From the NCBI GenBank assembly GCA_026126215.1, contig JAHCJQ010000005.1:1-64000 (forward strand): a stretch of DNA of 64,000 nt. Reading direction: 5' to 3'. Positions 22,231 through 42,726 of the stretch are shown one piece after another. The first letter of the stretch is position 1, and each line of letters starts with the position of its first letter. Made by a program: the position numbers and the translations under genes. The DNA is from Alphaproteobacteria bacterium (GTDB taxonomy: Bacteria > Pseudomonadota > Alphaproteobacteria > Ferrovibrionales > Ferrovibrionaceae). Under the pieces are notes generated by a model. It was not told the origin of the DNA and ran no database searches. It saw only the letters and a list, made by a program, of their open reading frames with translations.

Positions 22231-22289
22231 CATTTCCTCCTGATTGCGTTGGCCCCGATGTAACAGCCGTCTGCAAGTTGAACCATCAG

Positions 22290-22297: not shown

Positions 22298-22442
22298 ATC
22301 AAGCTCAATCCAACAAGGACGTTTCCTGATCCGGTGTCTTGAAACGGGCCTGAGAATTATCAATTACTACTGGGGATATTGGATATTCTCCATCCTCCCC
22401 GGGATGCGATGCAAAATGGTGCTTCCGAAGATCGTATAGCTA

Positions 22443-22452
22443 TTGTATACAA
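22443..22452. promoter_or_regulatory. Candidate GntR (FCD) operator upstream of the cupin operon
   Basis: The perfect 10-bp palindrome TTGTATACAA lies 33 bp before the TTG start of the cupin gene. FadR/FCD-subfamily GntR proteins are known to prefer T-x-GT-N-AC-x-A type palindromes, and an FCD-type regulator is encoded 2 kb downstream in the same operon. A position overlapping or just after the promoter would suit repression. Confidence 0.6.
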
Positions 22453-22485
22453 AGATGCCAAGTTAGGGGTTCCGGAGGTTCAATC

Positions 22486-22872: not shown

Positions 22873-22942
22873 TCCGGCCGGCCCTGCCGAGTGCGATCGG
22901 CCTCCTGAGCCGATGGACCATCAAGCAGCGGAGTGGAGCAGC

Positions 22943-23737: not shown

Positions 23738-23746
23738 GGGGGGACA

Positions 23747-24490: not shown

Positions 24491-24534
24491 GGCGGCGGAC
24501 GGATGCGTTCCGTCCGAATCACGGAGTGAACGAA

Positions 24535-25296: not shown

Positions 25297-25339
25297 ATTC
25301 CAATCGTTTCCATAGTTCTACGACCCAGCGGGAGTCCCG

Positions 25340-26539: not shown

Positions 26540-26550
26540 AGGAGCAAGGC

Positions 26551-27525: not shown

Positions 27526-28337
27526 TGAAAATCGGAATCATCGGTACCGCATTCCGCAGGAACGACCCCCTGGCGATACCGGAGGAGCTTGCGAAGGTGC
27601 TGGCGCCCGGCAGCGAGGCGGCCGTCTATGCGCCCGCACTGAGCGCCTTCCCGCACAATCCCTTCGATCTCAAGCTGCAGGAGATCGGCTATATCGAGGC
27701 AGGTCTAAGGGCGGCCGCCGATGGCTGCGGAGCGATCGTGCTCAATACGGTCGGAGATTATGGCGCAGCCGCGCTCAAGTCCGCCGTGCGTGTCCCGGTC
27801 GCCGCCGCCGGCGAGGTCGGCCTGCATGTCGCGGCGAGCCTCGGCCGGCCGGTCGGTATCGTAACGATATGGCCGGAATCGACTCGCTTCCTCTATCGGT
27901 CCGTCATCAGGGAGAGCGGGCTGGAGGCAGCAGTCGCAAGCGTCCTCCATGTGGGCAGCGAGAGCGAGCTTGCCGGGCTGGGCGCGGAGGATGACTATAT
28001 CGCCCGAATGCAGCAAGCCGACCGCGACGTGGTTTCGCGCATTATCGCCGCCTGCCGCAAGGCCCAGCGGGACGGTGCGGCAAGCATCCTCCTGGGTTGC
28101 ACCTGCATGTCTCCTATCGCGGCGGAAGTCGCCGCCGCCCTTGATATACCAGTGGTCAATCCGCTGACCGTGGTCGTCAAGTATGCGGAGTTGATGGCGA
28201 GCCTCGGCATCAGGCAGAGTTCGGCCTGCTACGCCGCAGCCAATCCGGCCCGCCGCCCGGCTCTCGCCGCCATGGCCGCCGCGGGCGCCGCCATTGTCGG
28301 CGCCGCCGATTGCGAGGTCTGTCTGGTGGGAGAATAG
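27525..28337 (+). CDS. Asp/Glu/hydantoin racemase family protein
   Basis: 270 residues of the Asp/Glu racemase superfamily, hydantoin-racemase-like. The C-terminal catalytic cysteine motif GCTCMSPIAAEVAAAL is intact. The N-terminal half, where the partner Cys is usually found, reads IVLNTVGDYGAAALKSA, with Thr in place of Cys. That would prevent a classical two-base racemisation. It is the second superfamily member in this operon; each has lost a different cysteine (the gene at 23747 keeps the N-terminal one). The start ATG overlaps the lyase stop. Confidence 0.72.
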   Translation: MKIGIIGTAFRRNDPLAIPEELAKVLAPGSEAAVYAPALSAFPHNPFDLKLQEIGYIEAGLRAAADGCGAIVLNTVGDYGAAALKSAVRVPVAAAGEVGLHVAASLGRPVGIVTIWPESTRFLYRSVIRESGLEAAVASVLHVGSESELAGLGAEDDYIARMQQADRDVVSRIIAACRKAQRDGAASILLGCTCMSPIAAEVAAALDIPVVNPLTVVVKYAELMASLGIRQSSACYAAANPARRPALAAMAAAGAAIVGAADCEVCLVGE

Positions 28338-28345
28338 GTTTGTCC

Positions 28346-28984
28346 ATGCGGCACCCCGACCACCGGGAGAAGGATGCGGCGCTGGCACTGCCATCCTGGG
28401 TCATGCGGATGAGCCTCTGGCTCGGCCGCATCGGGGGCGGCCTCGTCTTCCTCATGGCCTTTCCGATTACCATCGACGTGATCACCCGCAAGCTGTTCAG
28501 CGTGTCGCTTCTCGAGAGTTATGAGATCAGCACTTATGCCTTCGCCGTGGCGGTGGCTTTCGGCTACACCTATGCATTGCTGGCCGGTGCGCATATCCGC
28601 ATTGACGTGATGTACGCCCGCCTGAAACAGGGTCCGCGGGCCATCCTCGACGTGGTAGCCCTGTGCCTGCTGTCGGGGGTTTCCGCGATCCTGGCATGGC
28701 AGGCCGCAATAACGGCGATCGAGAGCTTTCGCATCGGCGCCCGCTCGAACAGCAGCCTGGGCGCGCCGCTCGCGCTGCCGCAGCTCATGTGGGCCGCCGG
28801 TCTCGTGCTGTTCGCGGTGATGTCGGGCATCGTGCTTGTCCGCGTCGCCTGGCTGGTGGCTCGCCGCCGCTACCAGATGAAGGAGCATCTCCTCGGCGGC
28901 GCGGCGATGGCGGCGTTCGAGACGGGTACGGCGCGCGCCCGGCCGGGCGGTGCGGTCGAAGATCGGGACGGCGAGGCACGATGA
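28346..28984 (+). CDS. TRAP transporter small permease (DctQ family)
   Basis: 212 residues with four membrane segments (LGRIGGGLVFLMAFPITIDV, YEISTYAFAVAVAFGYTYAL, and two more) in the DctQ pattern, including the FPITIDVITRKLF helix end. The C-terminal ~35 residues are a charged cytoplasmic tail. ATG 28346 is used; no strong ribosome site precedes it. The stop overlaps the DctM start (ATGA). It works with DctM and probably with the distant binding protein at 21181-22230, since no other binding protein lies in the operon. Confidence 0.85.
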   Translation: MRHPDHREKDAALALPSWVMRMSLWLGRIGGGLVFLMAFPITIDVITRKLFSVSLLESYEISTYAFAVAVAFGYTYALLAGAHIRIDVMYARLKQGPRAILDVVALCLLSGVSAILAWQAAITAIESFRIGARSNSSLGAPLALPQLMWAAGLVLFAVMSGIVLVRVAWLVARRRYQMKEHLLGGAAMAAFETGTARARPGGAVEDRDGEAR

Positions 28985-30267
28985 TCGTCCTTGCGCTGAG
29001 CGTTCTTTTCCTCCTCGTCGTGGCCGGCGTTCATGTCGCGGCAATCCTTGGCATCGTCTCGCTGGTCCTGGCAGAGTTCTATGCGTTCTTCCCGCTGACC
29101 GCCGCGCTCGGTGAGGTCGCCTGGTCGGCCAGTTCGGAGTTCACCTTGATCGCCGTCCCGATGTTCATCCTGATGGGCGAGATCCTGACCAAGTCGGGCA
29201 TGACAGACCGGATGTACACGGCTCTGGATGCATGGCTGAACCGCCTGCCCGGCGGCGTCATGCATACCAACGTGGCGGCGGCCACCATGTTCGCCGCGAC
29301 CTCGGGCTCGAGCGTCGCCACCGCGGCGACGGTCGGCACGGTGTCGCTCTCGAACATCGACCGTTACGGCTACAATCCGCCGCTCTTCCTGGGCAGCCTG
29401 GCGGCGGGCGGCACGCTTGGCATCCTCATCCCGCCGAGTATCAACATGGTGCTCTATGGCATGCTGTCCGATACCTCGATCACGGCACTCTACATTGCCA
29501 GCGCCATACCCGGACTGCTGCTTGCTTTCCTGTTCTCCTCGGTAATCTTCGTTGCCTGCGTGGTCAGGCCGCGATGGAGCGGCAGGGCTATCCCCTATTC
29601 CTGGGGCGACCGGCTGCGCGGCCTGCCGCATCTCCTGCCGCCGCTCGCGCTTTTCCTGGTTGTAGTGGGCAGCATCTATGGCGGCGTGGCGACGCCGAGC
29701 GAGGCCGCCGCGATGGGCGTGATCGCTTCCCTCCTCATCGCGCTGTTGGGCCGTGGCCTGTCGTGGCGGAGCCTCATCGCCGCCTTTGAGGCGACGATGC
29801 GGACGACCTGCATGATCATGCTGATCATCGTCATTGCCGTGTTCCTTAACTTCTGCATGGGCAGTGTCGGCATCACCGACATGGTCCTTGGCTGGGTGAA
29901 GTCGCTCGGCCTCGGCAAGTACGAGATGATGGCGGTCATCGTCTGCGTCTATCTGCTGCTTGGCTGCTTCATGGATCCGATCTCGATGATGGTGGCGACG
30001 GCACCGATCGTCGTGCCGCTGGTGGTAGCGCTTGGCTTCGACCCGGTCTGGTTTGGGGTGGTCTTCATGATTCTGAGCGAGGCGGCGATGATCACACCGC
30101 CGATCGGCGTCAACCTTTTCGTGGTCCAGTCGTTGCGCAAGAGCGGCTCGTTCTCCGAGGTAGCAATCGGCGTGCTGCCGTTCCTTGCGATCATGATCGG
30201 CTTCGTGGTCCTCATGATCGCTTTTCCGCAGATTGCCATGTGGCTGCCGGGGATTCTGGCGAAATAG
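28981..30267 (+). CDS. TRAP transporter large permease (DctM family)
   Basis: 428 residues, standard DctM size, with about 12-13 hydrophobic segments. Family motifs include FTLIAVPMFILMGEIL, AAATMFAATSGSSVATAATVG, GGTLGILIPPSINMVLYG and the repeat-end motif GVATPSEAAAMG, then ITPPIGVNLFVVQ near the C-terminus. It is the ion-coupled transport subunit for an organic acid that is then handled by the CoA transferase/lyase genes just upstream. It starts with ATG inside the DctQ stop. Confidence 0.9.
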   Translation: MIVLALSVLFLLVVAGVHVAAILGIVSLVLAEFYAFFPLTAALGEVAWSASSEFTLIAVPMFILMGEILTKSGMTDRMYTALDAWLNRLPGGVMHTNVAAATMFAATSGSSVATAATVGTVSLSNIDRYGYNPPLFLGSLAAGGTLGILIPPSINMVLYGMLSDTSITALYIASAIPGLLLAFLFSSVIFVACVVRPRWSGRAIPYSWGDRLRGLPHLLPPLALFLVVVGSIYGGVATPSEAAAMGVIASLLIALLGRGLSWRSLIAAFEATMRTTCMIMLIIVIAVFLNFCMGSVGITDMVLGWVKSLGLGKYEMMAVIVCVYLLLGCFMDPISMMVATAPIVVPLVVALGFDPVWFGVVFMILSEAAMITPPIGVNLFVVQSLRKSGSFSEVAIGVLPFLAIMIGFVVLMIAFPQIAMWLPGILAK

Positions 30268-30282
30268 GGCGGGGAGGGGCCG

Positions 30283-30921
30283 ATGGCTGATCTGGAAGAG
30301 AACTATCGGGGCGTGTTCGATGGCAGGCTGGGGTTCGGCTGCAGCCCGGCCGTTCTGGTCATTGACTTCATCAAGGCCTACACGACGCCCGGTGCGCCCC
30401 TCCATGCGCCGGACGTGGAGGTTGCGGTACGTGCCACGGCTCCCCTGCTCGACCTGGCGCGCGCGAGGAAGGTGCCCGTGATTTTCACCCGGGTGCTTTA
30501 TCACCCGGACGGTCTCGATGGCGGCCTGTTCATCCGCAAGGTACCCGCGTTGAGGGCGATGGTGCCGGGCGAGCCGCTTTCCGAAATCGTCGATGAGCTG
30601 CCGCTGGTGGCGAGCGACCTGGTCATCGTCAAGAACTATGCCAGCGCATTTTTCGGGACCACGCTCGGCGCCACTCTGACAGCGAACGGCATCGACACGC
30701 TGATTGTCACTGGATGTTCGACGAGCGGCTGTGTGCGCGCGACGGCCGTCGATGGAATGCAGCATGGCTTCCGGGTAATCGTGCCGCGCGAATGCGTGGG
30801 AGACCGTCACCGCACGCCGCACGAGGCGAACCTGTTCGACATCAACGCCAAGTATGGCGACGTATTGCCGCTGGAGGAGGTGATGGCGTATCTGCGCGGC
30901 CTCAATAGCGGCAGTGCCTGA
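30283..30921 (+). CDS. Isochorismatase-family hydrolase
   Basis: 212 residues with the cysteine-hydrolase triad of this family: about D28 (LVIDFIKAY), K117 (VIVKNYASAF) and C150 (STSGCVRATAVDGM). A cis-peptide-like VTGCSTSG precedes the nucleophile. The closest functional look-alikes are N-carbamoylsarcosine amidase and related amide hydrolases. It follows DctM by 15 bp and ends the operon, so it probably releases ammonia or a carbamoyl group from a pathway intermediate. The exact amide is unknown. Confidence 0.85.
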   Translation: MADLEENYRGVFDGRLGFGCSPAVLVIDFIKAYTTPGAPLHAPDVEVAVRATAPLLDLARARKVPVIFTRVLYHPDGLDGGLFIRKVPALRAMVPGEPLSEIVDELPLVASDLVIVKNYASAFFGTTLGATLTANGIDTLIVTGCSTSGCVRATAVDGMQHGFRVIVPRECVGDRHRTPHEANLFDINAKYGDVLPLEEVMAYLRGLNSGSA

Positions 30922-31027: not shown

Positions 31028-31043
31028 ATATGTAATTGCATGT
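31028..31043. promoter_or_regulatory. Candidate MarR operator, site A (dctQM-monooxygenase operon)
   Basis: ATATGTAATTGCATGT, a 16-bp imperfect dyad 45 bp before the DctQ start. It matches sites B (37333) and C (38477) with the form ATATGTR-N2-TRCATAT (one mismatch here). Several MarR regulators of aromatic catabolism use AT-rich dyads of this length, and two MarR genes lie in this cluster. Confidence 0.6.
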
Positions 31044-31088
31044 GATAGACTGCTCCCGGTACAAGGACGTGGGCTGCGGGGAGGCCCG

Positions 31089-31637
31089 ATGAGCTGGGAA
31101 GGGGGACGGTACGGACAGCGGCCAAGCGACGAGCCGCATGGTTTCGCGCTCGCAGCGCGACGCGCCGGCGCGCTCCTAGGCGTGCTGTCCGGAAGCTGCC
31201 TTTTCCTGATGATGCTGATGACCTTCGCGGATGTCATCGGACGCTATGTCTTCTCCGCCCCGATCCGTGGCGCCTACGAACTGACGGAGTTGTTGCTGGC
31301 GGTCGCCGTCTTCGGAGTCCTGCCCTCCGTGACGCTACGACGCAATCATGTTTCGACCGGCCTGTTCGACAGCGTCCTGCGAGGCCGGGCAAGGCATGCT
31401 GCCGATCTAGTCGTCCATCTTGCCGGGAGCGTGGCATGCGTGGTCGCAAGCTATGCGTTGACGCTGCAGGCCGGCCAGCAGATCCGGCTTGGTACCGCGA
31501 CCAGCGTACTGGCCCTGCCGACAGCACCCATCGTCATCTTCATTTCGGTGATGGCGGCCATTGCTGCGCTGATCCTCGCCCTCTTCTCCCTGGTGGCGCT
31601 TCGCGCCCTGGTTTCGTCCGGGCCGAGTCTCAGATGA
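31089..31637 (+). CDS. TRAP transporter small permease (DctQ family)
   Basis: 182 residues with four membrane segments (LGVLSGSCLFLMMLMTFADV, LTELLLAVAVFGVLPSV, LVVHLAGSVACVVASYAL, IVIFISVMAAIAALILALFS) and the DctQ element FADVIGRYVFSAPIRGAYELTE split over the first loop. It is the first gene of a four-gene operon whose members overlap by 4 bp each. Its operator-like site A lies just upstream. The partner binding protein is probably the one at 36194-37237, which shares the same operator motif. Confidence 0.88.
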   Translation: MSWEGGRYGQRPSDEPHGFALAARRAGALLGVLSGSCLFLMMLMTFADVIGRYVFSAPIRGAYELTELLLAVAVFGVLPSVTLRRNHVSTGLFDSVLRGRARHAADLVVHLAGSVACVVASYALTLQAGQQIRLGTATSVLALPTAPIVIFISVMAAIAALILALFSLVALRALVSSGPSLR

Positions 31638-32926
31638 TAGCCACGGCCATAGCCTTCGCCGTACTCTTCGCGCTGCTGTTCCTTGGCGTTCCGATCGGTT
31701 TTGGAATGGGTATCGTCGGCGCTGTGGGATTCGCGGCTTTTGTCGGCTGGCAACCCACCATCGCCATGATCGGACAGATCATCACCGACAACGTCTTCAA
31801 TTATGGCTTCTCGATCCTGCCGCTCTTCATCCTGATGGGCAACCTGGTCACCAGCTCGCGACTGTCAGAGGAACTGTATTCCGCCTCGCATGCTTTCCTT
31901 GGCCATCGACGTGGCGGGCTGGCGATGGCCACCATCGTGGCATGCGGTGGCTTTAGTGCGGTCTGCGGTTCCAGCATGGCGACGGCGGCCACCATGGCGA
32001 AGGTCGCCATGCCGTCGATGCGGCGCTATGGCTATGGCGATGGGCTGGCGACCGCATCTATTGCCGCCGGCGGCACGCTCGGCATACTGATACCGCCGAG
32101 CGTGATCCTGGTCATCTATGGCTTCATGACGGATACCGATATCGGCAAGCTTTTTATCGCCGGGATCATTCCTGGAGCTATCGGGGTTCTGTTCTATCTG
32201 GTCGCCGTTTCTATCGCGGCCTGGATGAATCCGAAAGGTGCGCCGCGCGCCGAACGCACGCCATGGCCGCAGCGCTTCCTTGCGCTACGCAGCGTTGGCG
32301 GTATCCTGGGCCTGTTCGCTCTCGTCATGGGCGGAATCTATGGCGGTATCTTCACTCCGTCGGAGGCGGCAGGTATCGGCGCGACCGGCGCCTTCCTGCT
32401 GGCGCTGGTCCGGCGCACCCTTTCCTGGTCGGGGCTGCTTGATGTGCTGCTGGAAACGGCGCGCACTTCCTCGATGATGTTCATCGTCCTGTTCGGCGCT
32501 CTGATCTTTTCAAACTTCATCAACATCGCCGGGCTTCCCTCGTCGCTCTCGCAGGCGATGCGCGATCTCGACGTATCGCCGATCACCGTCATCTTTCTCA
32601 TCTGCCTGCTCTATCTGGTTCTGGGCTGCCTGCTCGAAAGCCTGTCGATGATCCTGCTCACCATCCCCCTGTTCTATCCGTTGGTGCAGAGCCTGGGCTT
32701 CGACATGGTCTGGTTCGGGATCGTGGTCGTCGTGGTGGTAGAGGTCAGCCTTATCACGCCGCCGATTGGCATGAACGTCTTCATGCTGAAGGCGGTGATA
32801 CCCGATGTGCCGCTCGGGAGGATGTTCGGCGGCCTTCTGCCGTTCATACTGATGGACCTTGCCCGCCTCGCCCTCTTCATACTCGTGCCCGGCATTGTTC
32901 TCTTTCTGCCCTCGTTCATGCGATGA
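31634..32926 (+). CDS. TRAP transporter large permease (DctM family)
   Basis: 430 residues with the DctM helices and motifs: SILPLFILMGNLV, GGFSAVCGSSMATAATMAKV, GGTLGILIPPSVILVIYGF, GIFTPSEAAGIG and ITPPIGMNVFML. The start ATG overlaps the DctQ stop and the stop overlaps the monooxygenase start, so transporter and first catabolic enzyme are translationally coupled. Substrate is presumably an aromatic or heteroaromatic acid, inferred only from the downstream enzymes. Confidence 0.9.
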   Translation: MIATAIAFAVLFALLFLGVPIGFGMGIVGAVGFAAFVGWQPTIAMIGQIITDNVFNYGFSILPLFILMGNLVTSSRLSEELYSASHAFLGHRRGGLAMATIVACGGFSAVCGSSMATAATMAKVAMPSMRRYGYGDGLATASIAAGGTLGILIPPSVILVIYGFMTDTDIGKLFIAGIIPGAIGVLFYLVAVSIAAWMNPKGAPRAERTPWPQRFLALRSVGGILGLFALVMGGIYGGIFTPSEAAGIGATGAFLLALVRRTLSWSGLLDVLLETARTSSMMFIVLFGALIFSNFINIAGLPSSLSQAMRDLDVSPITVIFLICLLYLVLGCLLESLSMILLTIPLFYPLVQSLGFDMVWFGIVVVVVVEVSLITPPIGMNVFMLKAVIPDVPLGRMFGGLLPFILMDLARLALFILVPGIVLFLPSFMR

Positions 32927-34080
32927 TGCGCGGAAGGTCTCAGCAGCCCAGGGCCGAGATCGCCGGCGCCGGCATTGCCGGCCTTGCCGCCGCGATCGGC
33001 CTTGGCCTGCGCGGATGGCGGGTGCGGGTGCACGAGCGAAGCCCAGCTCTGCGCGGCGATGGTGCGGGCATCTATATCTGGGAGAACGGGCTTCGTGTTC
33101 TGGAGGCGCTTGGCGCCCTTGCGCAGGCGACGGCCGATTGCCACCAGGGCATCGCACGCGAGACGCGCGACGACAGAAACCGCGTTGTGGCGAGGGCGCA
33201 ATGGACGCGTGAGCCGGGCAAGCGCGTCGTGTCGATCGTGCGCAAGCAGCTTCTGGAGGCGCTGGCGGGCCGGGCGCGCGCCGTGGGCGCCGAGGTTATC
33301 TTTGGTTCCGAAGCGGTTGGCGCCACGCCGGAAGGGGAGATCCGCTTTGCCGATGGAAGCCATGCCAGAGCCGATCTGGTGGTGGCCGCCGACGGGGTGA
33401 ACTCGCGGATCCGGGACAGCCTCGGCCTGTTGCGCTCGCGTCGCCAGCTGGCGGATGGCGCCATCCGACTCCTGATCGACCGGCTGCCGGAAGAGCGCGA
33501 AAGCGAGGCCGGCAGCCGCTATGTCGAATACTGGTCGGGCCACCGGCGTATCCTTTATACGCCCTGCAGTTCCAGGCATCTTTATCTCGCCCTGACCACC
33601 CTTGACAGTGATGCCGAGGGCAAGGCGATCCCGCTGGACAAGGCTGCCTGGAAGCGATCGTTTCCACATCTGGCGGCGTTGATTGATCGCATCGATGACC
33701 GCGGGCGCTGGGACCGTTTTGAGGTCGTGCGGCTGCACCGATGGTCCACCGGCCGGGTGGCGGTTGTCGGCGATGCGGCGCATGCGCAGGCACCAAATCT
33801 GGGGCAAGGTGGCGGCTGCAGCCTGATGAACGCGCTAGCCCTCGCGGTGGCTGTCAGCGGGGCGGAAAGCATCGAGCAGGGACTATCGGAATGGGAGATG
33901 CGGGAGCGTCCGCTGACCGAACACACGCAACGCGCATCGTCCCTCTATGGCAAGGTAACGGTGCTGCCGCCGCTGCTTCGCAGCATCGTTCTCGATCTTG
34001 CCGGCCGTTCGAGGTGGGTCACCGCGCAACGCATGCGAACGGCTTTTCACATACCCACCGGAACGAGGGACGCAAGATGA
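32923..34080 (+). CDS. FAD-dependent aromatic-ring monooxygenase
   Basis: 385 residues, class A flavoprotein hydroxylase (PHBH/salicylate hydroxylase superfamily). It has the Rossmann GxGxxG in IAGAGIAGLAAAIGL, the DG motif in LVVAADGVNSRIRD and the second FAD motif GRVAVVGDAAHAQAPNLGQG. Length and N-terminus resemble 6-hydroxynicotinate 3-monooxygenase/salicylate hydroxylase types, but substrate cannot be read off. Its ATG overlaps the DctM stop, and its stop overlaps the alpha/beta hydrolase start. A clear paralogue of equal length is at 39391-40548, in the next operon of the same cluster. Confidence 0.85.
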   Translation: MMRGRSQQPRAEIAGAGIAGLAAAIGLGLRGWRVRVHERSPALRGDGAGIYIWENGLRVLEALGALAQATADCHQGIARETRDDRNRVVARAQWTREPGKRVVSIVRKQLLEALAGRARAVGAEVIFGSEAVGATPEGEIRFADGSHARADLVVAADGVNSRIRDSLGLLRSRRQLADGAIRLLIDRLPEERESEAGSRYVEYWSGHRRILYTPCSSRHLYLALTTLDSDAEGKAIPLDKAAWKRSFPHLAALIDRIDDRGRWDRFEVVRLHRWSTGRVAVVGDAAHAQAPNLGQGGGCSLMNALALAVAVSGAESIEQGLSEWEMRERPLTEHTQRASSLYGKVTVLPPLLRSIVLDLAGRSRWVTAQRMRTAFHIPTGTRDAR

Positions 34081-34949
34081 GCCTGGACGATCTTCCGACG
34101 CTGCCGCCGCTCATCCACGCGGAGGCGAAAGGCTATGCCGAGCGCGCCCTGGCTGCGACGCGCGAGGTGCAGTCAAGATCGCATGTTATGATCGATATCC
34201 AGTATGGTGACGATTACTGGCAGAAGCTCGATGTCTACCTGCCGGGTACGCCGGCATCCGCACCGCTGCCTTGTCTTGTATTCTTCCATGGTGGGGCCTG
34301 GACCAACGGCACCAAGGAATGGATGGGGTTCATGGCGCCGCCGCTGCTTGCGCTGCCCGCCATCTTCGTCGCCGCGAACTATCGCCTGGCGCCGACAGTG
34401 AGGCATCCGCAACAGCTCGAAGACTGCCTAGCGGCGGTCTCCTGGGTGCATAGGAATCTCGCGCAGATCGGCGGCGATCCAAAGCGCCTTTTCGTTGGCG
34501 GACACTCCGCCGGTGGCCATCTTGCCGCGCTGGCTGCGCTGCACGGGCCGCTGCGCGCGCGGACGGGACTGCCCGCAAACGCGATCCGTGGTTGCCTGCC
34601 GATCTCGGGTTCCTACGACCTAAGGAACCGGCAGGCCGCGGCCGGCACCTCGGCGCGTCGCATCTACGAAATGGTCCTGGCAAGGGAGACCGACGACGAG
34701 GATGCGAGCCCGATTGCTCATGTCGGGCCATCCGCGCCACCCTTCCTCCTGGCCTGGGGCGAGAAGGATTTCCCGCATCTTGTGCAGCAGGCCGCCGACA
34801 TGACGCGCGCCCTGGCCGATGCCGGCATCCCAGTCGAGACGCTGGAGATCGCCGATGCCGATCATTTTGCCGCGAGCGAGCGTTGCGGTCTCGCCAGTGC
34901 GACCTGGACCAGCGCCGCGCTCGCATGGCTGTCGGGCACTCGCTTTTGA
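34077..34949 (+). CDS. Alpha/beta hydrolase, kynurenine-formamidase/esterase-like
   Basis: 290 residues. The oxyanion-hole motif HGGAW (LVFFHGGAWTNGTKEW) and the nucleophile elbow GHSAGGHL are those of the HSL/BD-FAE/kynurenine formamidase group. The acid and base appear as an Asp near LAWGEKDFPH and a His in ADADHFAASE. It would hydrolyse an ester, lactone or N-formyl group formed after ring hydroxylation or cleavage. It closes the dctQ-dctM-monooxygenase operon and converges on the MarR gene with a 4-bp gap. Formamidase versus esterase cannot be separated by eye. Confidence 0.8.
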   Translation: MSLDDLPTLPPLIHAEAKGYAERALAATREVQSRSHVMIDIQYGDDYWQKLDVYLPGTPASAPLPCLVFFHGGAWTNGTKEWMGFMAPPLLALPAIFVAANYRLAPTVRHPQQLEDCLAAVSWVHRNLAQIGGDPKRLFVGGHSAGGHLAALAALHGPLRARTGLPANAIRGCLPISGSYDLRNRQAAAGTSARRIYEMVLARETDDEDASPIAHVGPSAPPFLLAWGEKDFPHLVQQAADMTRALADAGIPVETLEIADADHFAASERCGLASATWTSAALAWLSGTRF

Positions 34950-34953
34950 ATCT

Positions 34954-35493
34954 TCAGGCGCGAAACCGGTCCTGGACGTTGGCGAGAACAAGGTGCAGAA
35001 GTCCGACCAGGGCAGCCTGCTGCTGCTTCGACAGTCCCTTGACCGCGTGCCGGTAGTGGGCCATCGCGATCGGCAGGACCTGTTCGAGCATTGCCCTTCC
35101 GTGCCGCGTCATGTGCACCTCGACCACACGATTGTCATGGCGCGGGCTCCGGCGTTCCACAAGGCCATCCCGCACCATCTGGTCGATGACGCGGCTGAGC
35201 GTCGACTGCTCGATGATGGTGTGTTTGGAGAGATCGCCGATCCGGTTGCCGAGGCCGGCTTGCAGCACAGCGAGGACGCGCCATTGCGGCACTGACAGGC
35301 CCATCGCCCTGATCTGGGCGCGCAGGTCGGTGTTCATGCGATTGGCGATCTGGTTTACAAGGTACGGAAGAAAGTCGGAGAGCGGCAGTCCGGGTACCAG
35401 AATGCCCGTTTCTTGGTCGCTCGCGGCGCCGCACATCCCGCCATCGTCTGTTCTTCTTGCGGCTGTTGCCGCCTGGCCACGACGAAGGTGCAT
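34954..35493 (-). CDS. MarR-family transcriptional regulator (first of a tandem pair)
   Basis: 179 residues. The MarR winged-helix core spans ~45-145: MGLSVPQWRVLAVLQAG, ISDL-type helix GNRIGDLSKHTIIEQSTLSRVIDQMVRDGLVERR split over recognition helix and wing, and the wing sequence SPRHDNRVVEVHMT. GGGGA precedes ATG 35493. The gene starts 3 bp after the stop of a second MarR gene in the same direction. One of this pair is the likely reader of operator sites A, B and C. Confidence 0.88.
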   Translation of the reverse strand: MHLRRGQAATAARRTDDGGMCGAASDQETGILVPGLPLSDFLPYLVNQIANRMNTDLRAQIRAMGLSVPQWRVLAVLQAGLGNRIGDLSKHTIIEQSTLSRVIDQMVRDGLVERRSPRHDNRVVEVHMTRHGRAMLEQVLPIAMAHYRHAVKGLSKQQQAALVGLLHLVLANVQDRFRA

Positions 35494-35496
35494 ACG

Positions 35497-36024
35497 CTAT
35501 CCCCGCGACCCGCCGTTCCGAGAATTCGTGTCGAGCCAGGGATGACGTGGTGCCGTAACATGATCGAACATTCGCTGCAGCATGTCCTCCATGGCGCGTC
35601 GTTCGGTGGCGGAGAGAGCACTTACCGCATCGGCGACGATGGCTTGGGCATAGGGCCTCATCATCGCGAAGGTCGAGCGCCCTTCCTCCGTCAGCTTGAC
35701 ATCGACGATACGGGCATTCCCCTTGCGCTTGCTGCGGGTGACAAAACCGCGTCGCTCGAGCTGGTCGACGATACGGCTGACGACGGACTGCTCGATCACC
35801 GTGTCGCGCGAAATCTCGCCAACGCTCGCCACCTCGCGCGCATCGAGCATTTGCATGATCCGGAACTGCTGCACGGTCACCTGGAGCGGTCGCAGATGCT
35901 CCAGCAGGCGAAGGTTGAGCACATTCATCAGCCGGCTGATGTAGTGCGGCAGATACCCCCGCATGACGGGCTGACTGGGGGTTCGGTCGATCCTTGGCGG
36001 TCTTGACCTGCTGCTGGCACTCAT
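35497..36024 (-). CDS. MarR-family transcriptional regulator (second of a tandem pair)
   Basis: About 175 residues from ATG 36024; ATG 36081 and TTG 36120 are also possible and I see no decisive ribosome site. The MarR core is clear: LQVTVQQFRIMQMLDAREVA, TVIEQSVVSRIVDQLERRGF and the wing SKRKGNARIVDVKLTEEG. It is similar in layout to the gene just downstream (DTVIEQSVVSRIVDQLERRG versus HTIIEQSTLSRVIDQMVRDG), suggesting an old duplication. It follows the TRAP binding-protein gene, separated by a strong hairpin at 36153-36184. Confidence 0.85.
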   Translation of the reverse strand: MSASSRSRPPRIDRTPSQPVMRGYLPHYISRLMNVLNLRLLEHLRPLQVTVQQFRIMQMLDAREVASVGEISRDTVIEQSVVSRIVDQLERRGFVTRSKRKGNARIVDVKLTEEGRSTFAMMRPYAQAIVADAVSALSATERRAMEDMLQRMFDHVTAPRHPWLDTNSRNGGSRG

Positions 36025-36152
36025 GCGTCTTCGCTCGAGGTATTGCCGAACGCGGCAAAGCAGGATGGCGGCATGCCGCATTTCCTCGTCTAGGTATAAC
36101 GGAGCGCTGCCCGGTTGCAAGTCATTTGCGGCACGTTCCCATTGGTGGCGAT

Positions 36153-36184
36153 GCCCGGCGCCGGCAGGACCGCTGGCGCCGGGC
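36153..36184 (-). terminator. GC-rich hairpin between the TRAP binding protein and the MarR genes
   Basis: GCCCGGCGCC at 36153-36162 pairs perfectly with GGCGCCGGGC at 36175-36184 around a 12-nt loop. On the minus strand it comes about 10 bp after the binding-protein stop. There is no T-run, so it may be a partial terminator, a processing site or an mRNA-stabilising stem that keeps MarR expression below that of the binding protein. Confidence 0.45.
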
Positions 36185-36193
36185 TACGGAGGA

Positions 36194-37237
36194 TCAGTTC
36201 ATCGGCTTGTGGCGGGCGGCTTCGGCACGCAGCATAGCGACGGCGGCCTTACCATCAACACCCTTCGCGGCCGCCTCGCGGATCCAGCCTTGCTCAACTC
36301 CGGAAAGCCGGGACTTGAGTTCGGCCATCATCGCCGGAGAAGCAGTGCTGATTTTCATGCCGCTATCCCGGAATTGCTCGTTCGCTATACGATCCTGATC
36401 ATCCCAGATGCGACCGGCTTCGCGCGCAAAGACTTCGCCCGACACGCTCCAGATCGCCTTCCGGTTCGCCTCGGAAAGCGCATTCCATTTGGCTTCGTTC
36501 ATAACCACGAAGAATGCGGCGTTAAACAAGCCGGCGGGAACCTTCACCTGATGCGCGAGGAACTTGTCCATGCGGAAGCTTCGGATCGAATCGGGTGGCA
36601 GAAAGGTTCCATCAACGATGCCACGCGAAAGCATCTCATAAGCCTCGGTCACCGGCGCGCCAATCGGGACCACGCCAAGCGCGGTCGCCACTTCCGTCGG
36701 CGTTCCTCCCGCGGCGCGCATCTTGAGGTTCTTCAGATCCTCAACGGTCGCGATCGGCTTCTTTGCAGTGAAGATCTGGAAAGGTCCGTTGTTGAACACC
36801 GTCAGTAGCTTGGTTCCCTTGTACTCTCCTGCCGATGCAAAGAACTTCTCATGCACCCGCCATTGCGCGACGGAGAGGGCTTCGGCGCTGTCCCCGAGGA
36901 ACGGCAGCTCCGCGACACGACTGAGGACGAAGCGGTCGGGCGTATAGGTCTGGTTGCCGGCAGTGATGTCGGCAATGCCGGTCGCCGCCAGATCGAACTG
37001 GCGGGGTGGTGCGCCCAGCGACGAGGCGGTGAATTCGATCTTGACCCGCCCCTCGGTCGCCTTTTCTACGCGCTCGGCCCATGGAGCCATGATGCGCGCA
37101 TGAAAATGATGGGTTGGCGGCACCCAGCGGTTGAAGCGCAAGACGATATCCTGCGCGTTGGCGCTCGCCGGCGCGATCCCGATCAATGCAACGAACGCGG
37201 CTATCGCCGCTCCCGCCAACGGAACTATCCTGCTCAT
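36194..37237 (-). CDS. TRAP transporter periplasmic binding protein (DctP family)
   Basis: 347 residues. A Sec signal peptide (SRIVPLAGAAIAAFVALIGI, then APASANA-Q) is followed by a DctP fold: FNRWVPPTHHFHARIMAPWA, EDLKNLKMRAAGGTPTEVA with the substrate-binding Arg, and YEMLSRGIVDGTFLPPDSI. A GGGGGAAA ribosome site precedes ATG 37237. It is divergent from the LigB-type dioxygenase, and site B sits between the two genes. It should feed the DctQM pair at 31089-32926. Confidence 0.88.
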   Translation of the reverse strand: MSRIVPLAGAAIAAFVALIGIAPASANAQDIVLRFNRWVPPTHHFHARIMAPWAERVEKATEGRVKIEFTASSLGAPPRQFDLAATGIADITAGNQTYTPDRFVLSRVAELPFLGDSAEALSVAQWRVHEKFFASAGEYKGTKLLTVFNNGPFQIFTAKKPIATVEDLKNLKMRAAGGTPTEVATALGVVPIGAPVTEAYEMLSRGIVDGTFLPPDSIRSFRMDKFLAHQVKVPAGLFNAAFFVVMNEAKWNALSEANRKAIWSVSGEVFAREAGRIWDDQDRIANEQFRDSGMKISTASPAMMAELKSRLSGVEQGWIREAAAKGVDGKAAVAMLRAEAARHKPMN

Positions 37238-37332
37238 GAGCTGTTTCCCCCTTATGCCTCGCTGTTAGAGAACGCGAATTCGATCGGCGTGACCGGCCGC
37301 CACTGGTTCGCAGCGGAATTATTTGCAACATC

Positions 37333-37348
37333 ATATGTGATTGCATAT
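37333..37348. promoter_or_regulatory. Candidate MarR operator, site B (binding protein / dioxygenase)
   Basis: ATATGTGATTGCATAT, 95 bp before the TRAP binding-protein start (minus strand) and 117 bp before the dioxygenase start (plus strand). It shares arms with sites A and C and could control both divergent promoters. Confidence 0.6.
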
Positions 37349-37465
37349 TATGCCTGAAGACAGGATCGCGCAAGTGGCCTGCACCGCGCGAGCAAGTGAA
37401 GGTCCGCAGTGTATTGGCGGGGCTGCGATCCGGCGGAGCAGCGCAGGGGGAAGCGAAGCAGGATC

Positions 37466-38437
37466 ATGCCGATTGTTGCAGCGATAGCGATGACTCACAC
37501 GCCGGGACTGGGTGATCGGCTCGACGCACCACCGGCCCAGCAGATGGCACGCCTCAATGCGGGCTTTGCCCAAGCGCGCGAGATCCTCGCGGAGGCGCGG
37601 CCGGATCTGGTGATTGGCTTCGTGAACGATCATTTCGACATGTACTGTCTCAACAACATGCCGACCTTCTCCATTTCAGTGGCGTCCGAACATTGGGGAC
37701 CGCCAGCGAATGCGGAAGCGTGGCTGCGGATGAAGCGGCGGCGCCTGCCTGGTCACGAAGATTACGCGCTTGAAATTCATCGTACCGCAGTGCGCGCCGG
37801 CTACGACGTCTGCCGTTCGGGTCCGGCGGAACTGGTGCATAACGCGTTGATGCCTTTCAAGTTCCTGCGGCCCGAATGCGACCTGCCCCTGGTTCCGATT
37901 TTCACCAACTGTTTCGCGCCTCCGCTTCCCACATTCGCCCGCTGCTACGGCCTTGGCGAGTTGGTCGGTGATGTCATCGGGCGTCGACCGGAGCGAGTGG
38001 CGCTCATAGCGTCCGGTGGCATTTCCCACTGGCCGCCCTTCGCGAAGGAAGATGGGATTCACGACGAACTCGACCGGCGCATGCTGCGTATCCAGAGGCT
38101 TGGGCCGATCGGGCGCGAACGCGATCCAGAAGTACGGAAGTTGATCCACCAGCGCGAGCGGGAAATGGCCGCGTCGGGTCGTGAACTCATTAATGTTGAG
38201 TGGGACAGAGAACTGCTTGCGGCGTTCGAGCGGGGTGACAAGGCCTTTCTCACTGGCCTGACATACGACGAGATCGAGCGCGATGGTGGTAATGGCGGCC
38301 ATGAGATGGCGATGTGGGTGATGATGATGGGCGCGCTGGGCGGGCGTCCGGGGCGGACTCTGGTTTACGAGCCGGTCCGGGAGTGGATGGGCGGTGTCGG
38401 GATCCTGTCCTACGACAGGGTGCTGCCGATCACCTGA
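37466..38437 (+). CDS. LigB-type class III extradiol ring-cleavage dioxygenase
   Basis: 323 residues of the LigB/MhpB superfamily. Candidate iron and catalytic histidines are visible at about H11 (MTHTPG), H56 (NDHFD), H125 (AELVHNALMPF) and H188 (GGISHWP). Relatives cleave catechols such as 2,3-dihydroxyphenylpropionate, protocatechuate or gallate next to a hydroxyl, using non-haem Fe(II). AGCAGGA precedes ATG 37466. It leads a five-gene plus-strand run, and its product would be an open-chain oxo-acid that the hydrolase and oxidoreductase genes could process. Confidence 0.85.
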   Translation: MPIVAAIAMTHTPGLGDRLDAPPAQQMARLNAGFAQAREILAEARPDLVIGFVNDHFDMYCLNNMPTFSISVASEHWGPPANAEAWLRMKRRRLPGHEDYALEIHRTAVRAGYDVCRSGPAELVHNALMPFKFLRPECDLPLVPIFTNCFAPPLPTFARCYGLGELVGDVIGRRPERVALIASGGISHWPPFAKEDGIHDELDRRMLRIQRLGPIGRERDPEVRKLIHQREREMAASGRELINVEWDRELLAAFERGDKAFLTGLTYDEIERDGGNGGHEMAMWVMMMGALGGRPGRTLVYEPVREWMGGVGILSYDRVLPIT

Positions 38438-38476
38438 GGCCGCGGGCAGGATGGTTGACAGGGCGGAGAGTTCAGA

Positions 38477-38492
38477 ATATGTAAATACATAT
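38477..38492. promoter_or_regulatory. Candidate MarR operator, site C (PhyH-monooxygenase-ior operon)
   Basis: ATATGTAAATACATAT: the 7-bp arms ATATGTA/TACATAT pair perfectly around AA. It sits 24 bp before the PhyH start, in the only gap of the downstream gene run, so a separate promoter probably begins here. Best copy of the three-site motif. Confidence 0.65.
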
Positions 38493-38516
38493 GTAAAAGA
38501 ATATTAGGAGAAGGCC

Positions 38517-39371
38517 ATGTCCAGCACCACTGCCTGCCGCGTCGCTGAAGATGACATTGTCCGCTTTGAGACCGATGGCGTCGTCTGTCTTCGTAACGTC
38601 CTCGATGAGGGATGGATCGAGCAGCTCCGGGCGGCACTCGAGGAGGTGCTGGCGGCCCCGGGGCCGCAGGCGAAGACCTATGGCGGCGATGGGACTGGAC
38701 GTTTCGGTTACGACACGTTCATGTGGACGCGCAACGAGGTCTTCTGGCGGTTGCAGGCCGAGTCTCCGATCCCGCGGATAACCGCCGGGATCATGCGCTC
38801 AAGCGTGTCCCATCTCATGGCAGACATCGCTTTTGTGAAGGAGCCCAATACGCCGAACACGACGCCCTGGCATCAGGATCAGCCTTATGGCTGGTATGAC
38901 GGTCGGCAGGTCTGCTCCGTCTGGTTGCCGCTCGATCGTGTGACGCTGGCCAGCGGGGCGCTTGAGTATGTGGTGGGCTCGCATCTGAGCGGACACTGGT
39001 ACAGGCCGGTGGACTTCGCCGACGGAAAAGACCAGGACACGGACGAGTTCGTGCCGATGCCCGATATCGACGGTGAACGGCAGAAGTACAACATCATTCA
39101 TTTCGACATGGAACCGGGCGATCTGCTGATTCACGACCTGCTGGTTCTGCATGGATCGCCGGGCAACTCGATGGCGGATCGCCGCCGTCGGGCGATCGCC
39201 TTCCGCTACGCGGGCGACGATGCACGCTATGCGGTACGAAAAGTTGGACCAAAGCCGATCTGGGATCCGGGCATCGGCCATGGCGAGCGCTTCGGGTGCG
39301 AGCTGTTTCCGCAGGTCTGGCCGCACGCGCGCGTTCCGCGCTTTTGGGAGCGGCCGAGGGTGACGGCCTGA
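38517..39371 (+). CDS. Phytanoyl-CoA dioxygenase (PhyH) family protein
   Basis: 284 residues. The 2OG-Fe(II) ligands are visible as H119-x-D121 (TPWHQDQPYGW) and about H212 (LLVLHGSPGNS), with an Arg in RRRAIAFRYAGDD for 2OG binding. GGAGAAGG precedes ATG 38517. PhyH proteins hydroxylate acyl-CoAs, acids or other small molecules. In this setting it could hydroxylate a side chain before or after ring cleavage. It follows operator-like site C and is 19 bp from the next monooxygenase gene. Confidence 0.85.
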   Translation: MSSTTACRVAEDDIVRFETDGVVCLRNVLDEGWIEQLRAALEEVLAAPGPQAKTYGGDGTGRFGYDTFMWTRNEVFWRLQAESPIPRITAGIMRSSVSHLMADIAFVKEPNTPNTTPWHQDQPYGWYDGRQVCSVWLPLDRVTLASGALEYVVGSHLSGHWYRPVDFADGKDQDTDEFVPMPDIDGERQKYNIIHFDMEPGDLLIHDLLVLHGSPGNSMADRRRRAIAFRYAGDDARYAVRKVGPKPIWDPGIGHGERFGCELFPQVWPHARVPRFWERPRVTA

Positions 39372-39390
39372 ACGAGGGAGGAGGCCGGCG

Positions 39391-40548
39391 GTGAGGGAGA
39401 AGCGGCATGCTGAGATCGTCGGCGCGGGCCTTGGCGGGCTGACGGCTGCGGCTGCGCTCTGCCAGAGGGGGTGGAGCGTACGTGTACATGAGCGCATGCC
39501 GGAGATGCGGATCGTCGGCTCGGGCCTGTCCATGTTCGAAAACTCCCTGCGGGTCATGCGGGCGCTCGGCGCGGAGGCGGATGCCTGCCGCGGCGCCCGG
39601 CAGGGTTTTGAACGAGAGACCCGCGATGCGCGGGGGCGTACCACGTCGCACCTGAAATACTCGACCCGCATGTTCGAGATCACCCGCCAGCAGGTGGTCG
39701 CGGCACTGGCGAAGGCGGCAGAGCGCTCCGGCGCGGAGATTGTTACCGGCTCCACTGTCGTCGAGGCGGACCCCAGCGGCGCAATTACGCTCGCGAAGGG
39801 ACGTGTCTGCCGCGCCGACCTCGTCGTCGCGGCGGATGGCGTTCATTCCCGCATCCGCGACCAGTTGCGTATCCCCTACCGGCAGCGCTGGCTTAAGGAT
39901 GGCGCGATCCGGATCATGGTTCCGCGACTGCCGGAGGAGCTGTCAAGCCCGGATGCAAAGCGCAACGTGGAATACTGGTCAGGTTACCGCCGCATCCTGC
40001 TCGCGCCCTGCAGCGATGAGGATCTCTATGTGGCATTGACCACTCTCGATACGGACGAGGTTGGGAAACGCATTCCCATCGACAAGGTGGCCTGGCAGGC
40101 AGCATTTCCCGCGCTGCGCGACCTTATCGGGCGGCTTGACGGCGAAGCCCGCTGGGACCGGTTTCAGGTCATTAGCATGAAGCGATGGTCGAAAGGGCGC
40201 GTGGCGGTCATTGGCGATGCTGCGCATGCGATGGCACCCAACCTCGGTCAGGGTGGGGCCTGTGCGATGATGAATGCCCTGGGACTGGCGGTGACGCTGG
40301 AGCATGGCGCGGATGTCGAAACGGCGCTGGAGGAATGGGAGCGAAAGGAGCGGCCGCTTACCGATCACACACAGCGCTTCTCCAGCTTCTATAGTGAGCT
40401 GACAGTCTGGCCGGAGTGGCTGCGTTCCCGCGTGTTCGCCCTGCTCGCGCGATCATCCTGGCTGCGCAGCCAGCATCAGCGCACCGCATTTCACATTCCC
40501 AGGGGGACCGAGGGATTTGACGCTCCCGGCGCCCTTCCCGCCGGCTGA
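39391..40548 (+). CDS. FAD-dependent aromatic-ring monooxygenase (paralogue)
   Basis: 385 residues, the same length as the enzyme at 32923-34080 and closely similar along it: LVVAADGVHSRIRDQL versus LVVAADGVNSRIRDSL, VEYWSGYRRILLAPCS versus VEYWSGHRRILYTPCS, GDAAHAMAPNLGQGG versus GDAAHAQAPNLGQGG, and AFHIPRGT versus AFHIPTGT at the end. FAD motifs GAGLGGL and GDAAH are intact. The start is GTG 39391, preceded by a GGAGGAGG ribosome site. Two paralogues in one regulon suggest two successive hydroxylations or two related substrates. Confidence 0.85.
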   Translation: MREKRHAEIVGAGLGGLTAAAALCQRGWSVRVHERMPEMRIVGSGLSMFENSLRVMRALGAEADACRGARQGFERETRDARGRTTSHLKYSTRMFEITRQQVVAALAKAAERSGAEIVTGSTVVEADPSGAITLAKGRVCRADLVVAADGVHSRIRDQLRIPYRQRWLKDGAIRIMVPRLPEELSSPDAKRNVEYWSGYRRILLAPCSDEDLYVALTTLDTDEVGKRIPIDKVAWQAAFPALRDLIGRLDGEARWDRFQVISMKRWSKGRVAVIGDAAHAMAPNLGQGGACAMMNALGLAVTLEHGADVETALEEWERKERPLTDHTQRFSSFYSELTVWPEWLRSRVFALLARSSWLRSQHQRTAFHIPRGTEGFDAPGALPAG

Positions 40549-40568
40549 CCGGAATAGGGGAGGGTGCT

Positions 40569-42725
40569 TTGGCCGAACGATCTTTCGCCCGGGAGGTTGC
40601 CCAGCTCCGCTTGCGCGCCGGCGAGGAGTTCCGTGGCGAAGGAATCGTCGCTATCACCAAGGCGCTCCTGCAATGCGGCGTCGGCTATGTGGCCGGATAT
40701 CAGGGCGCTCCGATATCGCACCTGATGGATGTACTCGCCGATGCGCGCGAGATTCTCGAAGAACTCGGGGTGCATTTTGAGTCGAGCGCGAGCGAGGCAG
40801 CGGCCGCCGCCACTTTGGCCGCCTCGGTCATGTATCCGATCCGAGGCGCGGTCGCCTGGAAGTCGACGGCGGGAACCAACGTTGCCGCCGACGCGCTTTC
40901 GAACCTGGCATCCAGTGGTGTCAACGGCGGTGCGCTGATCGTGGTCGGTGAGGATTATGGCGAGGGCTCGTCGATCATGCAGGAGCGAAGTCACGCGTTC
41001 GCCATGAAATCGCAGATCTGGCTGCTCGATCCCCGTCCAAACCTGCCGAGCATCGTATCGAGCGTCGAGGCGGGCTTCGAGCTTTCGGAGGCATCAGCCA
41101 CGCCGGTCATGCTTGAAGTGAGGATCAGGGCTTGTCACCTGCACGGCCGCTTCATCGCCAGGGACAACAGGCGGCCATCTTTCCCTCTCGCCGAGGCGCG
41201 TGCCAATCCGCAGCGCGATACCGGCCGGATCGTCCTTCCGCCAGCTTCCTTTGCCCATGAACAGGACAAGATCGCCCGGCGATGGCCGGCGGCGGTCAGG
41301 TTCATCCGGGAGCGGCAGCTGAACGAACATTTCCCGGTGAGCGGGGCGGAGGCCGGCATCATTCTTCAGGGCGGCATGTTCAATGGCGTGGTCCGCGCCC
41401 TGCAGGTTCTTGGCCTGGCCGATGGGCTGGGCCGTCCGCAGATTCCTCTGCTCGTGCTCAATGTCACCTATCCACTGGTCGAGGAGGAAATAACAGAGTT
41501 CTGCCGGGACAAGCGTGCGGTCCTGGTGGCGGAAGAGGGCCAGCCCAACTTCATCCAGCAGGCGATCCAGTCGGTGCTTGCACAGTCAGGGCTGTCCACG
41601 CGGGTGCATGGCAAGGATGTTCTGCCGATGGCCGGAGAGTATACGACATCGGTCCTTGTAGAGGGTATCAGGGGCTTTGTTGGTCGCGCCGTGCCGCCGC
41701 ACATGAGGCCAAATCTCCGCTCACCGCCCGATCCGGGGCCTGTCCTGGCTCAAGAGAGCGTGCGCGCGCTCGCCGATATAGTGCCGTCAAGACCACCGGG
41801 TTTCTGCACCGGCTGCCCGGAGCGGCCAATATTTGCGGCCATGAAACTCGTCGAGCGGGAGCTTGGCGCCCATCACGTGGCAGCCGATATCGGCTGCCAC
41901 CTGTTTTCGATCCTGCCGCCGTTCAATATCGGCGCCACCACCATGGGTTACGGTCTGGGGCCGGCTTCCGCCTCTGCATTCGGTGCAAAGTCGGGAAGGC
42001 GCACGATCTCGATCATGGGTGACGGGGGTTTCTGGCATAACGGCCTTACCAGCAGCATCGGCAATGCCGTCTTCAACAAGTCCGATGGCGTCATTCTCAT
42101 CGTCGACAACCACTATGCGGCGGCGACCGGTGGCCAGGATCTGCCATCCTCGCGCGCGGCCAGCCTCGCTCGTTCCACCAGGCATCCGATCGCTGAGGCG
42201 GTACGGGGCGTGGGTGTCGGCTGGGTCCGGGAGATCGATGACACCTACGACGTTTCACGGATGCGGGACACGCTTCGGGAGGCGCTAGGCACGAGCGAGG
42301 ACGGCCCGAAGGTCATCATCGCCTCTTCGGAGTGCATGCTGAACCGCCAGAGAAGGCTTGCGCCGGTGCGGCGCGAGGCGCTTGCCCGGGGCAGGCGGGT
42401 CGTGCAGGAGCGATTTGGCGTCGACGAGGATGTGTGCAATGGCGACCATGCCTGCGTCCGGCTGTCGGGCTGTCCATCACTATCCCTCAAGCCTTCATCG
42501 GACCCGTTCAAGGAAGACCCGGTCGCCGCCATTGACCAGGACTGCGTTGGCTGTGGCAACTGCGGCGAAGTCGCCGATGCGGCAATTCTGTGTCCATCCT
42601 TCTACCGGCTGACGGCAATCCGTAACCCGGGGAGATGGGAGCGGCTGCGCGGATGGTTCCGCGCCTGCGTCATGGAACTTGTCTGGCGCGCCAGCCGCCG
42701 CCGCCCACACACCGGACCAGCCTGA
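40569..42725 (+). CDS. Indolepyruvate:ferredoxin oxidoreductase-like alpha subunit (IorA)
   Basis: 718 residues, the length of IorA. Residues ~20-200 are the pyrimidine-binding domain (VAGYQGAPISHLMD, FESSASEAAAAATL). Residues ~420-600 are the TPP-pyrophosphate domain with FCTGCPERPIF, ADIGCHLFS, MGDGGFWHNG and VDNHYAAATGGQ. The C-terminal ~60 residues carry two [4Fe-4S] motifs (CNGDHACVRLSGCP and CVGCGNCGEVADAAILCP). It would decarboxylate a 2-oxo acid to acyl-CoA and reduce ferredoxin, with the IorB-like partner downstream. The start is TTG 40569 after GGGGAGGG. This enzyme type is oxygen sensitive in many hosts, so it is unusual beside oxygenases. Confidence 0.88.
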   Translation: MAERSFAREVAQLRLRAGEEFRGEGIVAITKALLQCGVGYVAGYQGAPISHLMDVLADAREILEELGVHFESSASEAAAAATLAASVMYPIRGAVAWKSTAGTNVAADALSNLASSGVNGGALIVVGEDYGEGSSIMQERSHAFAMKSQIWLLDPRPNLPSIVSSVEAGFELSEASATPVMLEVRIRACHLHGRFIARDNRRPSFPLAEARANPQRDTGRIVLPPASFAHEQDKIARRWPAAVRFIRERQLNEHFPVSGAEAGIILQGGMFNGVVRALQVLGLADGLGRPQIPLLVLNVTYPLVEEEITEFCRDKRAVLVAEEGQPNFIQQAIQSVLAQSGLSTRVHGKDVLPMAGEYTTSVLVEGIRGFVGRAVPPHMRPNLRSPPDPGPVLAQESVRALADIVPSRPPGFCTGCPERPIFAAMKLVERELGAHHVAADIGCHLFSILPPFNIGATTMGYGLGPASASAFGAKSGRRTISIMGDGGFWHNGLTSSIGNAVFNKSDGVILIVDNHYAAATGGQDLPSSRAASLARSTRHPIAEAVRGVGVGWVREIDDTYDVSRMRDTLREALGTSEDGPKVIIASSECMLNRQRRLAPVRREALARGRRVVQERFGVDEDVCNGDHACVRLSGCPSLSLKPSSDPFKEDPVAAIDQDCVGCGNCGEVADAAILCPSFYRLTAIRNPGRWERLRGWFRACVMELVWRASRRRPHTGPA

Positions 42726-42726
42726 G

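Follow-up and report, generated by a model that had tools for sequence, protein, structure and literature searches.

Three conserved dyads mark a predicted regulon in a probable aromatic-degradation cluster, with a MarR-family protein as their likely reader

At this locus of a Ferrovibrionaceae bacterium, genes for a transporter, for several oxygenases and for two tandem MarR-family proteins lie close to copies of one short dyad, which raises the question of whether these copies mark a common regulon and, if so, which protein reads them. A sequence-only reading of the window (the whole stretch of 64,000 nucleotides that was analysed) had proposed three such sites, each 24–117 bp before a start codon and none inside a gene. 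We recovered all three 16-bp dyads at exactly the coordinates proposed there, every one of them intergenic and followed by a start codon after 45, 117 or 24 bp. The sites and the genes around them are as follows.

31028–31043, plus strand: candidate operator 1, ATATGTAATTGCATGT, 45 bp 5' of the dctQ ATG (31089)
31089–31637, plus strand: dctQ, TRAP small permease (PF04290)
31640–32926, plus strand: dctM, TRAP large permease (TIGR00786, over cut-off)
32923–34080, plus strand: FAD-dependent aromatic monooxygenase 1, FMO1 (PF01494)
34068–34949, plus strand: alpha/beta hydrolase (PF07859)
34954–35493, minus strand: MarR1, second MarR-family protein (PF01047 and PF12802, over cut-off)
35497–36024, minus strand: MarR2, MarR-family protein with its ATG at 36024, predicted as the likeliest operator binder (PF01047 and PF12802, over cut-off)
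36194–37237, minus strand: dctP, TRAP solute-binding protein, heading a putative dctP-MarR2-MarR1 operon (Pfam, NCBIfam)
37333–37348, no strand assigned: candidate operator 2, ATATGTGATTGCATAT, between the divergent dctP and LigB genes, 117 bp from the LigB ATG (37466, plus) and 95 bp from the dctP ATG (37237, minus)
37466–38437, plus strand: LigB-type extradiol dioxygenase (PF02900)
38477–38492, plus strand: candidate operator 3, ATATGTAAATACATAT, 24 bp 5' of the PhyH ATG (38517)
38517–39371, plus strand: PhyH-type Fe(II)/2-oxoglutarate oxygenase (PF05721)
39391–40548, plus strand: FAD-dependent aromatic monooxygenase 2, FMO2 (PF01494)
40569–42725, plus strand: iorA-like 2-oxoacid:ferredoxin oxidoreductase subunit (TIGR03336 matched, below cut-off)
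42730–44310, plus strand: iorB-like subunit (NF006179, over cut-off)

The genes under the dyads comprise both halves of the TRAP transporter, the two FAD monooxygenases, LigB, PhyH, iorAB, the hydrolase and the MarR genes, and the prediction that the three sites mark one regulon of this catabolic cluster is well supported. With dctQM and dctP both behind dyads, the regulon does take in both transporter halves, as had been claimed. The further claim that it embraces all oxygenases stands for the cluster (FMO1, FMO2, LigB and PhyH) but not for the window, where a WelO5-like gene at 22913–23737 has no site. The latter belongs to a separate cluster (21181–30921) with its own TRAP transporter, a GntR/FCD regulator, a CoA transferase, an HMGL-like lyase and an arylmalonate decarboxylase-like protein, in which no dyad of the three-site type was found; its product matches the WelO5 Pfam model (E 8e-11) and is a candidate halogenase or hydroxylase, WelO5 itself being a carrier-independent Fe/2-oxoglutarate halogenase.

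The dyad-bearing cluster probably imports and degrades an aromatic compound, and the gene content suggests a likely order of steps: an aromatic acid would be taken up, hydroxylated, opened by extradiol cleavage and converted to a CoA thioester by oxidative decarboxylation. In estrogen degradation, an Ior-type enzyme has been reported to act on a meta-cleavage product (EdcB then EdcC, PMC7793797). The locus unites a transporter, four oxygenases and an Ior-type enzyme in one probable pathway with one probable regulator, so that its substrate becomes testable.

How specific is the dyad to these promoters? Allowing up to three mismatches, the pattern occurs 11 times in the window where 2.44 occurrences would be expected, a count reached by none of 100 shuffles, and the sole match inside a gene, at 40685, carries three mismatches. 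Pattern searches were then extended to the genome (3.65 Mb in 237 contigs, an assembly 84% complete), where the three window dyads are the only matches at zero or one mismatch and four further places appear at two mismatches, compared with 0 and 1, respectively, for the reversed-pattern control. Matches of equal score at unrelated positions, which the sequence-only reading had named as evidence against a regulon, are therefore absent from the scanned sequence. A cross-species matrix built solely from the sites of other organisms, with the window sites left out, also ranked the three dyads first, second and third in the window with scores of 25.5, 23.9 and 22.6, while the maximum over 200 dinucleotide shuffles was 18.5. 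In the converse test, a window-only matrix gave the sites of the Ferrovibrio and Parahaliea relatives described below scores of 21–25 against shuffle maxima of 17–19.

The closest relative of LigB outside this genome (64%) occurs in a Ferrovibrio metagenome-assembled genome of the same family (G011 = L091), in which the cluster is rearranged: hydrolase, FMO1 and LigB lie on one strand, MarR2, iorAB and an FMO on the other, and PhyH-FMO2 farther along. Three sites were present on one contig, GTATGTAATTACATGT between LigB and MarR2, GTATGTAATTTCATAT before PhyH and ATATGTTATTGCATAT ahead of an operon for a solute-binding protein. This last protein resembles dipeptide/glutathione ABC binding proteins (all matches lie below the curated cut-offs), and the transporter genes thus seem to have been exchanged under a retained candidate operator, TRAP in this genome, what looks like a dipeptide-type ABC system in Ferrovibrio. 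The Ferrovibrio cluster also encodes a bifunctional salicylyl-CoA 5-hydroxylase (L039:8633-10945, over the NCBIfam cut-off) with no equivalent among those genes of the window cluster that were scanned, a hint as to the pathway. A TA-rich exact palindrome on the Ferrovibrio contig C106 was left aside as probable chance.

Conservation extends to two genomes of the gammaproteobacterium Parahaliea, where LigB adjoins the MarR2 orthologue with ATATGTAATAACATAT in between; neither of these 5-Mb genomes contains another exact match to the pattern. A MarR2-clade protein, LigB and the dyad therefore co-occur in Ferrovibrio and both Parahaliea genomes. A plasmid cluster of Novosphingobium resinovorum encodes a MarR2-clade protein but has only GCTTGCGTTTGCATAT before LigB, a weak, half-matching sequence whose score of 11.0 falls within the shuffle range; the independent lineages are few, four in number, or five if Novosphingobium is counted. 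No dyad was found at the LigB loci that have no MarR2-clade gene in reach (L096-L099), and the LigB loci of G059, G077, Betaproteobacteria, Achromobacter and N. naphthalenivorans showed neither such a protein in reach nor a dyad. Searches with the MarR2 alignment in 391 and 398 genomes yielded two distant relatives besides the Parahaliea start genome and nothing else.

These observations bear on the reading in which the dyads are no operators at all, just core-promoter sequence or chance AT-rich palindromes. It draws on their overlap with promoter-like hexamers and on their AT-richness within a GC-rich genome, but we consider it very improbable given the rarity of the motif genome-wide relative to the control, the outcome of the cross-species matrix test and the conservation of the dyad beside orthologous genes from alpha- to gammaproteobacteria. 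Since the motif is rare in the genome and recurs before orthologous genes elsewhere, the regulon reading is well supported.

The regulator of these dyads, and their predicted binder, is probably MarR2. MarR-family regulators typically have palindromic operators of about 16–20 bp in the promoters that they control, and the three conserved palindromes here are 6-4-6 dyads in promoters; a MarR domain scores over the Pfam cut-off in both tandem proteins (PF01047, PF12802). The earlier proposal tied the dyad to the tandem pair as a whole; this is borne out for MarR2 and not for MarR1, which has no counterpart that we could find in the dyad-bearing clusters of Ferrovibrio or Parahaliea. The MarR proteins of these clusters share 52% (Ferrovibrio) and 43–44% (Parahaliea) identity with MarR2, compared with 30% for MarR1. 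In a maximum-likelihood tree, MarR2 groups with the Ferrovibrio, Novosphingobium plasmid and Parahaliea proteins in a single clade (support 95/92), adjoined by the MarR of a Pusillimonas cluster (96/93), while MarR1 is placed apart in a weakly supported group of its own. The recognition helix, VIEQSVVSR, is invariant across the MarR2 clade.

Might MarR1 bind the dyads as well, whether by itself, in a heterodimer with MarR2 or as a competitor of MarR2, so that shared operators would answer to different ligands? The two genes lie in tandem in one putative operon, the helix motifs of the pair are related (EQSVVSR in MarR2 and its clade, EQSTLSR in MarR1), and proteins nearer MarR1 by BLAST (L142-L144, 30–38%) also have adjacent ATATG-type dyads, so MarR1 could read the same sequence. 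However, its absence from the Ferrovibrio and Parahaliea dyad clusters, its separate position in the tree and the lack of such a dyad within 1.5 kb of its closest relatives (44% and 40%) make this a possibility that we regard as doubtful.

The position of the dyads relative to the promoters suggests how MarR2, as the preferred reader, might act. Five bases ahead of the dyad, LigB promoters from three lineages carry TTGCA and the dctQ promoter carries CTGCA, an arrangement that can be read as a –35 element TTGCAN followed, after 17 bp, by a –10 element that starts with the last bases of the dyad. The –10 hexamers read in this way are TATTAT, TACTAT and TATAAA, with a poorer TGTGAT at dctQ. A consensus scan lists TTGCAA-17-TATTAT at 37323–37351 toward LigB, with operator 2 in the spacer. 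Before PhyH, a promoter-like site consists of TTGACA (38455–38460), 17 bp and TATGTA, and the –10-like hexamer overlaps the left half of operator 3. If these hexamers are promoter elements, as we infer, the dyad fills the –35/–10 spacer in the LigB promoters, an arrangement that fits repression. In the gap between dctP and MarR2, before the MarR2 gene, lies another such arrangement, TTGCAA-16-TATACC (36093–36120, minus strand), which has no dyad and may serve the MarR genes as a second promoter.

Activation from these sites would have a precedent in the MarR protein BhbR2, reported to act as an activator when bound to TTGATT-N5-AATCAA, a site placed over a –35 box (PMC12016517). Several of the dyads described here, however, fill the spacer and touch the –10 element, where the usual mode of MarR proteins is to block the polymerase, and an activating MarR2 is accordingly an unlikely reading.

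Repression by MarR2 would involve more than the 16-bp dyads. Every window site is accompanied, at an offset of exactly 12 bp, by a partial dyad on one side (31016, 37321 and 38489), a feature absent from the sequence-only reading, with companion half-sites CTGCA at about 31018 for operator 1 and TTGCA for operator 2. At operator 3 the offset copy forms a further candidate feature:

38489–38504, plus strand: candidate second dyad, ATATGTAAAAGAATAT, overlapping operator 3 at a 12-bp offset

We scored the outer half-site at every offset from 7 to 30 in nine promoters of four lineages, with 5000 shuffles of the flanks. The mean was 3.9 at 12 bp and at most –2.2 at all other offsets, and no shuffle reached the peak, which persisted when the four TTGCA promoters were removed and when the window-only matrix was applied to the relatives. 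Reading TTGCA as a –35 element accounts for part of the –12 signal. Since most promoters carry the companion half-site on one side at exactly this 12-bp distance, the operator likely exceeds 16 bp and consists of two overlapping dyads, a double layout that the first reading had not included.

The double arrangement is most distinct in the clusters of two Pusillimonas species, which have TATTGTAATAACAATTGTAAAAACAACT before dctP, with two 6-4-6 dyads offset by 12 bp. Their outer letters are ATTGT instead of ATATGT, and the helix of the cluster MarR reads TLPVLSR where the MarR2 clade has EQSVVSR. Having been found by seeking that layout after the best-position list, these sites support the double arrangement and do not test it. 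We tentatively suggest, at somewhat less than even chances, that two dimers of a MarR2-clade repressor occupy overlapping dyads at the 12-bp offset, and that operator letters and helix changed together between the clade and its sister group (ATATGT with EQSVVSR, ATTGT with TLPVLSR) while the 12-bp layout was kept. If true, this would provide a natural series from which the MarR DNA code could be read; the locus and its relatives supply a few such pairs of operator and helix that differ by natural variation.

Taken as a whole, the sites, their genome-wide rarity, their conservation, the linkage to the MarR2 clade and the 12-bp companion are established by the analysis and are best explained, with good though not full confidence, by three operators of one local repressor, MarR2 (35497–36024); within this explanation we infer binding, repression, the promoter hexamers, the ligand and the two-dimer mode. 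When no inducer is present, a MarR2 dimer, probably two dimers on the overlapping dyads 12 bp apart, would sit on the core promoters that drive dctQM-FMO1-hydrolase, LigB together with the divergent dctP-MarR2-MarR1 operon, and PhyH-FMO2-iorAB, keeping RNA polymerase out and restricting the synthesis of MarR2 itself. An aromatic carboxylate imported through the TRAP transporter, or a metabolite derived from that carboxylate, would bind and release MarR2, and uptake, ring hydroxylation, extradiol cleavage and oxidative decarboxylation would be induced together. MarR1 may act as a partner or as an additional sensor, by analogy with IadR2 of auxin-degrading bacteria.

MarR repressors of aromatic catabolism with dyads on –10/–35 elements are well known, among them CouR, HpaR and Saro_0803. 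Closest to the present arrangement are the IadR/IadR2 and IacR systems, whose MarR repressors lie inside an aerobic aromatic-acid cluster, as the predicted repressor does here. The iad loci for auxin (indole-3-acetate, IAA) contain iorAB and two MarR genes, of which only one product was shown to bind auxin (Conway 2022, PMC9613470), and the IadR-type chains 3CDH and 7KFO are among the nearest solved structures. The iad loci, however, encode the Rieske-type IadDE, while no such enzyme occurs among the scanned genes from 31089 to 44310, and one 24-bp IadR site has been described against several dispersed candidate operators here (compared by description). Moreover, IadR contacts the IAA carboxylate through Ser28, His32 and Arg46, and alignments to 7KFO and 7KKI place Asn, Leu and Arg at these positions in MarR2 and Asn, Arg and Arg in MarR1. 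With only the arginine of the three contacts kept, the ligand of MarR2 and MarR1 likely differs from IAA, although it could perhaps still be a carboxylate.

HpaR, the homoprotocatechuate repressor, is the best NCBIfam model for both proteins (TIGR02337), at 58.2 and 52.3 bits, short of the cut-off of 121.2. It acts as a repressor of extradiol catabolism at a dyad that covers the –10 element and has arms 4 bp apart (PMC7180172), but its described operator is TTAA-N4-TTAA. CouR of Rhodococcus jostii likewise serves as one MarR repressor with several dispersed promoter boxes, one of them for a divergent pair (PMC4737184); its box, in contrast, is ATTGA-N5-TCAAT over the –35 element, its ligand is a CoA thioester and its pathway is unrelated. 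We found no description of these dyads as an operator, or of this cluster, in the open-access literature. We place the cluster among the MarR-controlled catabolic regulons, as neither an HpaR nor an IadR system; the predicted type of control is ordinary, with a conserved and fairly elaborate candidate binding site.

Finally, among the 22 MarR-domain genes of the genome, a high-scoring dyad within 1.5 kb was detected only for this cluster and for one paralogue. There, ATTTGTAATTGCAAAT (G000:C112:67673-67688; L006:1501-1516; L145:11674) precedes a luciferase-like monooxygenase gene, so named from its translation without a family search, which is followed by a MarR1-like gene. Dyads of the ATTTGCATTTGCAAAT type, resembling ATTTGTAATTGCAAAT, lie near relatives in G001, G007 and G082 (L079, L075 and L081), and a second, related family of predicted MarR operators seems to exist. 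ATATG-type dyads also stand beside more distant MarR genes in sphingomonads and in G003, by which the predicted 6-4-6 dyad is common to a wider MarR group. Several of them accompany a MarR gene in sphingomonad clusters (L142:9931, 13728, 8927; L143:15729, 8579), together with genes that, from their translations alone, appear amidohydrolase-like, transporter-like and aminotransferase-like.
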